From: an uncultured Gemmatimonadales bacterium
GTDB taxonomy: Bacteria > Gemmatimonadota > Gemmatimonadetes > Gemmatimonadales > GWC2-71-9
NCBI GenBank assembly: GCA_947259405.1
Contig: CAMYLY010000012.1
Coordinates: 1 to 64,000, forward strand
Length of the DNA: 64,000 bases
Direction of reading: 5' to 3'
This document shows, piece by piece, positions 55,497 to 59,084 of this stretch (within the stretch, counting starts at the first letter, position 1; the number at the start of each line of letters is the position of its first letter). A program made the translations under genes and the position numbers. The notes beneath the pieces are model-generated. The model was not told where the DNA came from, ran no database searches, and saw only the letters and a list, made by a program, of their open reading frames with translations.

Positions 55497-56465
55497 CTAC
55501 TTCGACGGGGGCAGCTCGTGGTGGCACACGCGGTTTCGTCCGCGCGTCTTGGATTCGTAGAGTGCCCTATCCGCATGGATGAGGAGCGACCGGTGCCATG
55601 AGGGCTCCGCGCTCCCAGGCTCCGATGGGTTCAGAGTGGTAGCACCCACGCTGACGGTCACCGGTCTCTTGACCCAGTGTGCTGAGGCCACCCTCTGGCG
55701 AAACCGTTCTCCAAGGGTGATGGCGCCAGTGTCGTTGGTCTCCGGCAAAATGATGGCGAACTCCTCGCCGCCGATTCTGGCCACGAAGTCACTTGCGCGG
55801 GCTGCGTCTCGAAGGGTCGCGGCGACGCGACGGAGCACCTCATCTCCCTCGAGGTGTCCGAAATCGTCGTTGTACTCCTTGAATCGATCCACGTCGAGGA
55901 TGAGGATGGAGACCGGTCGCGTGGTCCGCGCACACATCTCGAGTTGGATGCCGAGCTGGTCGAGGAACGCTCGCCGATTGCGGAGGCCCGTCAACTCATC
56001 CGTGGCGGCGAGGTCGGCGAGCTCGTCACGCATGGTCGCGAGATCGCGAAGTTGCGCCGCGAGGAATTCCTGACTGAGAACCCGCTGCGTGAGGTCGACC
56101 ACCGCCGTGAGCACGTGGCGACGCCCGTCGACCTGGACAGGGTTGAGCCCGATCTCGACTGGGAATTCGGTTCCGTCGCTGCGTAGCGCGACGAGGTCGC
56201 GATTCGTTCCCATACGCCTTGGGGTGGGCTTGTCCCGATATTCGCTCCGGTGCTCGCGATGCATATCCCGGAGTTCGGTAGGCACCAAAACCTCGATAGA
56301 CTCACCGAGTAGCGCGCCACTCTCATAGAGAAAAAGCCTCTCGGCTTCCCCGTTCGCGTAGACGATGCTCCCGGAATCATCGACGAGAAACATTGCAAAA
56401 GGTGCGGCCTGGAAGGCGAGCTGAAGCAGGGCCGGGTCACGGAGATCGGGAGGGTCAGCTGTCAC
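55497..56465 (-). CDS. PAS-GGDEF diguanylate cyclase
   Basis: 322 residues from a GTG with GGAGG 4 bases upstream. A PAS domain at about 12-130 (AAPFAMFLVDDSGSIVYANG, then HREHRSEYRDKP, then VEIGLNPVQVDGRRHVLTAV) is joined by a coiled linker to a GGDEF domain at about 150-315: DELTGLRNRRAFLDQL, LILDVDRFKEYNDDFGH and ARIGGEEFAIILPE. The GGEEF active site is intact, and RASD lies five residues before it at the product-inhibition I-site. It makes c-di-GMP in response to an unknown PAS signal. The promoter region upstream is AT-rich and repeated. Confidence 0.9.
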   Translation of the reverse strand: MTADPPDLRDPALLQLAFQAAPFAMFLVDDSGSIVYANGEAERLFLYESGALLGESIEVLVPTELRDMHREHRSEYRDKPTPRRMGTNRDLVALRSDGTEFPVEIGLNPVQVDGRRHVLTAVVDLTQRVLSQEFLAAQLRDLATMRDELADLAATDELTGLRNRRAFLDQLGIQLEMCARTTRPVSILILDVDRFKEYNDDFGHLEGDEVLRRVAATLRDAARASDFVARIGGEEFAIILPETNDTGAITLGERFRQRVASAHWVKRPVTVSVGATTLNPSEPGSAEPSWHRSLLIHADRALYESKTRGRNRVCHHELPPSK

Positions 56466-56557: not shown

Positions 56558-57076
56558 TCATCCGTCAAGCCACGCCGGTGCCGGACGACTCAGCCAGAGC
56601 CATGCGATATAGTCGACCAACGGCGGGTCGGCCCCGAGTTCGCGCAGCCGGGCGTTGACCTGCCCCCGGTGGTATTGGCTGTGATACGCCACCTGTAGCA
56701 GGGTGTCGCCGAACGTCGTTGGTGCCGCTGAACCGCCCAGCTGCTCGTCGAACATGCTGGCCCACGGAACCTCGAGTGTCGCCCCGAGGTCCTTGCCGTT
56801 GAGCGTGGTAAGAAACTCAGCGAGGTCCCGATAGTACGAGCGAGCCCAGACGCGTGCGTCACGGAGGGTTGGGACCTGGTCGGGTGCGTACGGGGGCACT
56901 GCGTCTACCTTCCAAACTTGGAGGAACGCACGCTGCACAAAGTGCAGGTGATACAGCAAACCGTGGAGCCTGTTGTCGGGTGCGGGGTCTTCCAGTCCGG
57001 GCACCGCGTGCCACACGAGTGCATCGGCCCATTCCATGTGGCGGTAGAGATCGCGTATCAGGGTCGAGTCGATCAT
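56558..57076 (-). CDS. DinB-superfamily protein
   Basis: 172 residues from the ATG at 57076, cytoplasmic. DinB four-helix bundle with LYRHMEWADALVWHAV, LHGLLYHLHFVQRAFLQVW and TLLQVAYHSQYHRGQVNARL; the His residues of the second and last helices are the usual metal ligands. It is one of three DinB-fold genes in the window, with the secreted one at 49640 and the DUF1569 pseudogene. Function unknown; relatives are metal-dependent thiol transferases or stress proteins. Confidence 0.85.
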   Translation of the reverse strand: MIDSTLIRDLYRHMEWADALVWHAVPGLEDPAPDNRLHGLLYHLHFVQRAFLQVWKVDAVPPYAPDQVPTLRDARVWARSYYRDLAEFLTTLNGKDLGATLEVPWASMFDEQLGGSAAPTTFGDTLLQVAYHSQYHRGQVNARLRELGADPPLVDYIAWLWLSRPAPAWLDG

Positions 57077-57187
57077 CGTCGCATAAAATGTTTCACACCC
57101 AGGATGCGGAGCACAAGTCAAGGCAGGTCTCGCCGACGGCGGGTTGATCGTACAGATTATCGCGGACCCCCTCGCTAGGGCGGCAGC

Positions 57188-57583: not shown

Positions 57584-58132
57584 CTAGAGAATTACCCGCA
57601 TCGCCCAGAAGCCGAGCACGAACAACGCTTCGAGGAAGCTGGCAGCGAAGGCTGCGAGCACGACCGCCAGCGCCACCGGATTCGCCAGCCGTACCAGCGC
57701 GGCCGCGCCCAGGAGAAGATCGCGGCTCTCGGCAACGGTCTTCCACAAGAGCCACAACCCACGAAACAGCCCAAGGCCCCGTCCGGTTTGCGGCAGGTCT
57801 TCCGCGCGGAAGGTATTGGCAACCTCCGACGCTTGGTTTCGACCTTGTCGTATCGATTCGAGAACCTTGGTGGGGAGATGGAGAAGCTGGCGGAGTCCGA
57901 GGTACAGCAACCCAAGGACTAGCGCCGGCAGCACGCACGTCACCATGAGGAGCCCGGCAACCGGGAATTGCCACCAGGCGGAAAACGCCAGGGGGCTGAC
58001 GAGGATGCCCCAGAAAGCGATACCGACCACGACGGCCACCAGGGTGGCGATGCGGACAGCACCCACCGAACGCCGTGCAATCAACACCGGGAGCGGTGGC
58101 TGGGCAGTGCTCGGCTCTCGGTGAACGCTCAC
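57584..58132 (-). CDS. Membrane protein of the PYP operon
   Basis: 182 residues from the GTG at 58132. Two hydrophobic helices near the N-terminus (about 21-45 and 49-72), a basic helical linker (LPTKVLESIRQGRNQ), then one or two C-terminal helices (ALAVVLAAFAASFLEALFVL). It follows the PYP-like gene by 41 bp on the same strand and may be its membrane partner or output. No known family identified. An upstream part of the same frame overlaps the PYP gene and looks non-coding. Confidence 0.6.
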   Translation of the reverse strand: MSVHREPSTAQPPLPVLIARRSVGAVRIATLVAVVVGIAFWGILVSPLAFSAWWQFPVAGLLMVTCVLPALVLGLLYLGLRQLLHLPTKVLESIRQGRNQASEVANTFRAEDLPQTGRGLGLFRGLWLLWKTVAESRDLLLGAAALVRLANPVALAVVLAAFAASFLEALFVLGFWAMRVIL

Positions 58133-58173: not shown

Positions 58174-58674
58174 TCAGGCGCCGGCCTCTTCTGCGGCCTG
58201 CACGAGAATCACTGCGCGTTGCGCCACTGCTTCGTAGCACATAGCGATATGGACAAAGCGATCGCCTTCCGCGAAGCGGAAAAGGAAATCGAATGCCTGG
58301 CGTCCACTCTCGCCGGCAGCCACCATGTCGCGGAAGGTTCCTTCGAATTCGCGAACCCTCGTGCAAGGCGCCACGTCTGTGAAGAACAACTTTCCTAACA
58401 CCGACTCGCGTGAAAGACCGGTGAGAGATTCCTCGGCACTGTTGTATTGGAGGACCCGCCCGTCAGGGTCGAGCTCCAGCAGACCGAACGGCAACGCGTC
58501 GTACTCTGGCTGGGAGAGACCGTACAAACTCTGGGTCGGGAATAGGCCACGCGCCGAGCCGCCATGGCACGATCCACAAACCCCGTACCATACGGGCGCC
58601 CCGTAGTGCGGAAGGGGAACCTCGGCCAGCGTCTTCCCGCACCATGCGCACAGAACGGTCGATATGTCGGTCAT
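58174..58674 (-). CDS. Photoactive-yellow-protein-like PAS photosensor with N-terminal Cys4 site
   Basis: 166 residues. Residues 60-160 align with photoactive yellow protein without gaps: ALPFGLLELDPDGRVLQYNS, then GKLFFTDVAPCTRVREFEGT. Tyr77, Glu81 and Cys104 sit at the spacing of PYP Tyr42, Glu46 and Cys69, which bind p-coumaroyl chromophore. Thr85 matches Thr50; Arg52 is Leu87. Residues 9-36 add a zinc-like Cys4 motif (CAWC...CGSC) absent from classical PYP. The start overlaps the TPR-like gene stop (ATGA). Chromophore synthesis genes (tyrosine ammonia-lyase, coumarate-CoA ligase) are not in this window. Confidence 0.8.
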   Translation of the reverse strand: MTDISTVLCAWCGKTLAEVPLPHYGAPVWYGVCGSCHGGSARGLFPTQSLYGLSQPEYDALPFGLLELDPDGRVLQYNSAEESLTGLSRESVLGKLFFTDVAPCTRVREFEGTFRDMVAAGESGRQAFDFLFRFAEGDRFVHIAMCYEAVAQRAVILVQAAEEAGA

Positions 58675-59084
58675 GAGCCCTCCTTCCCCCTTTGATCACG
58701 TGTACACCTCGTGATGCCCGCGCGCGCCGCTCCGAGGTAGGCGATGTTATCCTCGTGTTCGGCCTGGCGCTCCATGTCCCGAAAATAGACGACCGCGGAC
58801 TCGGGATCACCGATGACCTCATAGCCGAGCGCGATCTGATTGAGCGCCACGATATCGGGGTGGATCTCGTAGGCGATCTTACAGTACTCGATGGCTTCCT
58901 TGACCTTCTCGGGACGACACATGATGCCTTCGGGCCCCGTGGCGCACGGCACCCAGCCCTTGCCTTTGGGTGGACGGTTGAGCGTCCGGTGCATGCCCGC
59001 TTCCAGTGTCTTTGCGGCAAGCTTGAACACCGTCGTAGCCGCCTTGTGGCGGATGGGATCAATGTCCGGGGTACTGTGCGCCAT
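58671..59084 (-). CDS. TPR-like protein coupled to the PYP-like gene
   Basis: 137 residues from the ATG at 59084, mostly helical. AIEYCKIAYEIHPDIVALNQ and IALGYEVIGDPESAVVYFRD form a tetratricopeptide-like helix-turn-helix array. A Cys-containing loop (WVPCATGPEGIMCRPEK) precedes it. Its stop overlaps the PYP-like start, so the two are translated together. A scaffold or signal-partner role is inferred from position. No enzymatic domain. Confidence 0.65.
   Translation of the reverse strand: MAHSTPDIDPIRHKAATTVFKLAAKTLEAGMHRTLNRPPKGKGWVPCATGPEGIMCRPEKVKEAIEYCKIAYEIHPDIVALNQIALGYEVIGDPESAVVYFRDMERQAEHEDNIAYLGAARAGITRCTRDQRGKEGS

Follow-up and report, generated by a model that had tools for sequence, protein, structure and literature searches.

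The locus considered here, a minus-strand open reading frame in a 64,000-nucleotide stretch of DNA from an uncultured Gemmatimonadales bacterium (the window, meaning that whole stretch), raises two questions: whether its product is a photoactive yellow protein (PYP), and what is the role of the four-cysteine (Cys4) segment placed in front of its PAS domain. The frame begins at an ATG (58674) preceded at a short distance by the Shine-Dalgarno-like AAGGAGGG, and its translation is a PYP homologue of 166 aa (Table 1).

Table 1 Features of the Cys4-PYP gene and its neighbours, in window positions (PYP numbering in brackets where given).
Feature	Position	Strand	Basis or remark
Cys4-PYP coding sequence, 166 aa	58174..58674	-	Translation, TIGR02373, PDB PYP match, AlphaFold2, Foldseek
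Cys4 module core, residues 9-36 (C9, C12, C33, C36)	58567..58650	-	Cys conservation, predicted strands, REC/PAS-terminal profile match
PYP-type PAS domain, residues 54-159	58198..58515	-	TIGR02373 54-159; Pfam PAS 59-145
Tyr77 codon (PYP Tyr42)	58444..58446	-	
Glu81 codon (PYP Glu46)	58432..58434	-	
Cys104 codon (PYP Cys69, chromophore thioester site)	58363..58365	-	
TPR-like gene (weak), 137 aa, upstream of PYP	58671..59084	-	Stop overlaps PYP start (ATGA)
Predicted membrane or exported protein, 189 aa	59095..59664	-	10 bp upstream of the TPR-like gene
Hydrophobic (membrane) protein	57584..58132	-	About 41 bp downstream of PYP; without Pfam family

The translation bears out the chromophore triad reported in the preliminary description: Tyr77, Glu81 and Cys104 keep the spacing of Tyr42, Glu46 and Cys69, within FFTDVAPCT, and these are the residues said to define the PYP family (PMC9664959). 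The homology proposed there was recovered in sequence and profile searches (phmmer against PDB PYPs, E = 2e-18; TIGR02373, E = 1.5e-24), with 35-40% identity to the PDB PYPs over about 110 aa, and the structure prediction suggested as a check returned a confident PYP fold (AlphaFold2, pLDDT 90.4, pTM 0.85). When this model was searched with Foldseek, PDB matches 1-40 were all PYP or PYP-derived (target-normalised TM about 0.8, rmsd 2.0 over 112 columns). The TIGR02373 score of 86.4 bits lies under the 143 bits of that model's cut-off, which is an equivalog threshold and not a family definition; since the model picks up only some 20% of PYP homologues (PMC9664959), a score below 143 does not exclude PYP membership and is compatible with it. 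Of the nine residues in the conserved pCA pocket (I31, Y42, E46, F62, V66, A67, P68, C69, F96; PMC12826048), the window protein has eight unchanged, the exception being I31, which is Leu66. The exchange of Arg52 for Leu had also been pointed out: Leu87 does sit at position 52, but this is no peculiarity, Leu being the consensus there of 984 PYPs (PMC12826048), and we rejected it as a special trait; within the PYPs that carry the Cys4 extension (Cys4-PYPs), Arg is the commonest residue at this position (20/33).

The window protein has in common with classical PYPs (Halorhodospira halophila PYP and the PYP domain of R. centenum Ppr) the fold, the triad, the DVAPCT context and the pocket residues, and differs from them in the replacement of Met100 and Trp119, in missing the equivalog cut-off, and in its N-terminus, where the Cys4 extension replaces the first 16 or so residues of the N-cap. 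Similarity to PYP starts at about PYP residue 17, indicating that the Cys4 module sits where the N-cap would otherwise begin. Judged by its sequence, the window gene is a genuine-looking PYP with an intact chromophore site.

The extension, described beforehand as foreign to classical PYP, is present as C9-x2-C12-x20-C33-x2-C36 and does not vary among 33 related proteins: the four cysteines, arranged as two CxxC knuckles, occur in 33/33 distinct Cys4-PYPs, and nine proteins of Gemmatimonadota have C9, C12, G31, C33 and C36 in common. In the PAS domain of the Cys4-PYPs, E46, C69, N43, F62, F63, A67, P68, T70 and F96 are each found in 33/33, and Tyr42 in 31 (Phe in the other two); E46 and C69 are thus kept in proteins of several phyla that are about 40% identical. 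Homologues that lack Cys69 while keeping the rest, named in advance as evidence against a chromophore role, were looked for in the Cys4-PYP subfamily and none was found. Some of the subfamily searches, including that of the Geothrix family, set no Cys69 requirement, so its constancy in those searches is not a selection effect. Met100 and Trp119 are absent throughout the subfamily, and the photocycle kinetics may therefore be strongly different from the classical ones. Absorption of the window protein would be predicted at about 445 nm from the Thr50 trend (PMC12826048), and the loss of Met100 would predict that recovery is slow, as in Met100 mutants.

Scanning a single genome per species turned up Cys4-PYPs beyond Gemmatimonadota, namely in Acidobacteriota (Holophagaceae), in Myxococcota and in one MAG each of delta-proteobacteria and Planctomycetota. 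Among the carriers in Acidobacteriota is the cultured Geothrix rubra Red803, and the 77 genomes searched from the Geothrix family contained 19 Cys4-PYPs, of which 14 were additional. In a quick tree of the PAS domain only, the 19 Cys4-PYPs of the tree set need 3 changes (shuffled mean, 17), the other 64 PYPs of the set being without a Cys4 N-terminus; keeping these 19 together as one group improved the log-likelihood by 15 units over the unconstrained search (p-AU 0.88), on an alignment of about 118 columns with many unresolved forks. The Cys4-PYP fusion probably had a single origin. Among the 102 genomes of the window's own family only this one has a Cys4-PYP, and, taken with the distribution over several phyla, this suggests that the gene was acquired horizontally. 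PYPs of the classical form, lacking the extension, are common in the window's order. The best matches of a plasmid search begin past the Cys4 part and are ordinary PYPs, with one low-identity Rhizobium match besides. In 13 Geothrix-type loci (among L189-L202) the Cys4-PYP gene adjoins that of a malic enzyme-phosphotransacetylase, a constant neighbour indicating that the gene is inherited vertically there. A SpoIIE-type phosphatase gene lies on the other side of the Cys4-PYP in 11 of those 13 loci.

The AlphaFold2 model has three strands in the extension (4-9, 15-20 and 28-32), which folded alone reaches a pLDDT of 86. Its Foldseek neighbours were non-significant, the best (E = 0.16) being zinc-binding Zur/Fur/PerR proteins; no curated Pfam zinc family was above cut-off for the extension; the PknG rubredoxin domain PF16919 matched the extension of L066 weakly (E = 0.0021, below the curated cut-off); and PknG chains matched the extension at an E of about 1 in the PDB sequence search. 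Naming the module by Pfam, PDB sequence or Foldseek was rejected, the only matches being weak ones to zinc proteins. The module probably binds zinc, although iron, in a rubredoxin-like site, is another candidate for the metal.

A closer relationship came from the CAWC...SHGIC..C pattern, which was traced to the C-terminal module of other signalling proteins in Gemmatimonadota. Comparison of the extension with the Cys4 module that ends REC and PAS proteins gave an hhalign probability of 97.3% and a score of 51.6; in 60 control column shuffles that kept the cysteines the scores were at most 18.5, and the likeness therefore extends past the cysteines. The REC/PAS module (alignment A3) has the CxxC and HGICPxC knuckles in common with the Cys4-PYPs, and is distinguished by its C-terminal position and by a longer insert between the knuckles. 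Its carriers are of REC-Cys4, PAS-Cys4, CHASE-PAS-Cys4 and MHYT-PAS-Cys4 type, and no known output domain was detected in them; no Pfam family lies above cut-off over the module in a fully scanned member, and none matches more than 8 of the 13 members, even weakly. Since the module ends REC and PAS proteins that are without a known output domain, it has the shape expected of an output or partner-binding element, and would itself be that element. A similar arrangement has been described in HalOD2 of halobacterial response regulators, likewise a predicted Zn finger with two CxxC, 20-25 residues apart, at the protein end; HalOD2 itself follows a HalX-like part (PMC5847659). The unclassified REC/PAS module, of the form CxxCKxxRD...W..vE.Y...SHGICPxC, stands at the C-terminus of L015, L165, L166, L167, L169, L177 and L178.

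The supply of chromophore was examined in the same genomes. No PF00221 protein (aromatic ammonia-lyases, including TAL) was found in the window's genome, which is 61% complete. The absence is probably an assembly gap, because of this completeness and because PF00221 is present in 92 of the 102 family members; it was rejected as an argument against a chromophore, since 49 of the 50 family genomes that are at least 90% complete have PF00221. Where the selectivity motif of the lyases of Cys4-PYP carriers is readable it is mostly 'SH', which by rule denotes the HAL type. Two ammonia-lyases of Cys4-PYP genomes, L155 (G217:C205) and L158 (G373:C26), have the pair 'YL' (RYLD.G), not the 'SH' of HAL; L155 is the sole aromatic ammonia-lyase of G217, and these 'YL' lyases could be a source of p-coumarate. 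The window's genome encodes seven AMP-binding (AMP-forming) ligases, one of which (L005) scores above cut-off for the benzoate-CoA ligase family and is a candidate aromatic CoA ligase. Neither TAL nor pCL adjoins the PYP gene, which is usual, since only 5% of pyp operons include TAL and 32% pCL; uptake of p-coumarate by the host is also possible (PMC12826048). No photosynthetic reaction centre (PF00124) was detected in this incomplete genome, and a light-harvesting lifestyle was rejected on that absence.

From the sequence and its conservation, together with the fold prediction and the kinship to the REC/PAS module, we infer, with moderate confidence, a functional Cys4-PYP: a p-coumarate blue-light switch with a light-gated, zinc-type knuckle at its N-terminus for output or partner binding. 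p-Coumaric acid would be bound on Cys104, the PAS domain acting as the blue-light switch, and the four N-terminal cysteines would coordinate a single metal ion, zinc being the likeliest, in a small beta-ribbon standing in for the first part of the classical N-cap. Blue light would isomerise the p-coumarate on Cys104 and so loosen the N-terminal region; the loosening would release or reposition the knuckle and change its exposure, and a partner would be engaged or let go. This switching would use the same kind of Cys4 module as is borne by the REC and PAS proteins without known output domain. More tentatively, the Cys4 module may be an unrecognised general output domain of response regulators, PAS sensors and PYPs, the PYP fusion being its form as a light-switched zinc knuckle, an extension of the argument that we regard as somewhat doubtful. 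In PYP signalling the N-terminal domain unfolds, and a 2024 review states that the partner and the part of unfolding in recognition are unknown (PMC11003764).

The knuckle of a functional PYP could instead be a structural cap, serving stability or dimerisation outside signalling. A structural role is common for small Zn(Cys)4 knuckles, the weak Foldseek matches include zinc proteins such as Zur and PerR, and the Cys4-PYPs have no conserved partner gene, all of which would agree with such a cap; we nevertheless consider it rather unlikely, given that in REC and PAS proteins nothing but this module can be recognised apart from the sensory parts, as would be the case for an output module. Distinctly less probable is a dual sensor of light and redox state, in which iron or zinc would be taken up reversibly by the Cys4 site, or its cysteines would pair as disulphides, with the redox state gating the PYP switch. 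Every match that points this way, namely the PknG rubredoxin likeness on L066 and in the PknG chains and the Zn(Cys)4 redox switch of PerR among the weak fold matches, is below curated cut-offs, and no redox enzyme is seen adjoining the PYP gene, against which stands the proposal of redox-tuned PYPs in methylobacteria (PMC9664959).

The pigment itself is at issue if the domain is a neofunctionalised PAS, that is, if the residues were kept and p-coumarate binding was lost, for instance in a host that makes none. The failure to find TAL in this genome, the dominance of HAL-type lyases in the carriers and the loss of Met100 and Trp119 are in keeping with this account, which we consider very improbable: C69 and E46 persist in 33/33 proteins of several phyla with about 40% identity, the aromatic CoA ligase candidate L005 is present, TAL is rare in pyp operons, and p-coumarate may be taken up (PMC12826048). 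A light-switched Cys4-PYP stays the preferred reading.

The novelty of the locus does not lie in the occurrence of a PYP in this lineage or in a heterotroph, which is already published, PYP homologues of both Gemmatimonadota and Acidobacteriota being on record (PMC9664959, PMC12826048). The new part is the Cys4 N-terminus, which makes these proteins an architectural variant of PYP, probably of single origin. Zinc is not mentioned in the main text of the two recent PYP surveys (PMC9664959, PMC12826048), and a literature search for a zinc-binding PYP turned up nothing relevant among the hits listed. Known multidomain proteins (PYP-PHY-HK, PYP-V4R, MCP-PYP and REC-PYP; PMC12826048) join PYP to a second module, as here; in the Cys4-PYPs this partner is a module of about 40 residues, and at 166 aa the window protein is under the 200-aa limit for multidomain proteins of that survey. 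The partner of single-domain PYP is unknown after four decades (PMC11003764), and here a conserved, probably metal-binding interaction module stands in the N-terminal position of PYP, kept in several phyla and dozens of bacteria. The Cys4 arrangement offers a testable route for PYP signal output, with Geothrix rubra Red803 as a cultured host; if the proposal is true, these would be the first PYPs whose light-gated N-terminus bears a defined partner-binding element, and a compact light-gated metal knuckle would serve optogenetics. For specialists, the variant is a moderate surprise.

At the locus itself, the overlap between the stop of the TPR-like gene and the start of the PYP gene makes it probable that the two are co-translated, and the gene of the 189-aa protein and that of the downstream membrane protein are possibly the first and the last of the PYP operon. 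Promoter and terminator scans gave nothing exceeding chance. Homologues of the TPR-like gene were absent in 60 relatives and in 18 other Cys4-PYP genomes, and 101 other genomes of the family lacked any homologue of the downstream gene; both are therefore weak candidates for a general PYP partner. A conserved partner gene was rejected, none being found across phyla and these two genes having no homologues in the relatives searched. DinB-family genes lie near Cys4-PYP in two unrelated genomes (L088, 6454-7023; window, 56558-57121), probably by chance. A PAS-GGDEF diguanylate cyclase gene is located at 55497-56465 on the minus strand, 1.7 kb downstream of PYP with other genes between, and PYP genes are often near genes of this kind (PMC9664959).
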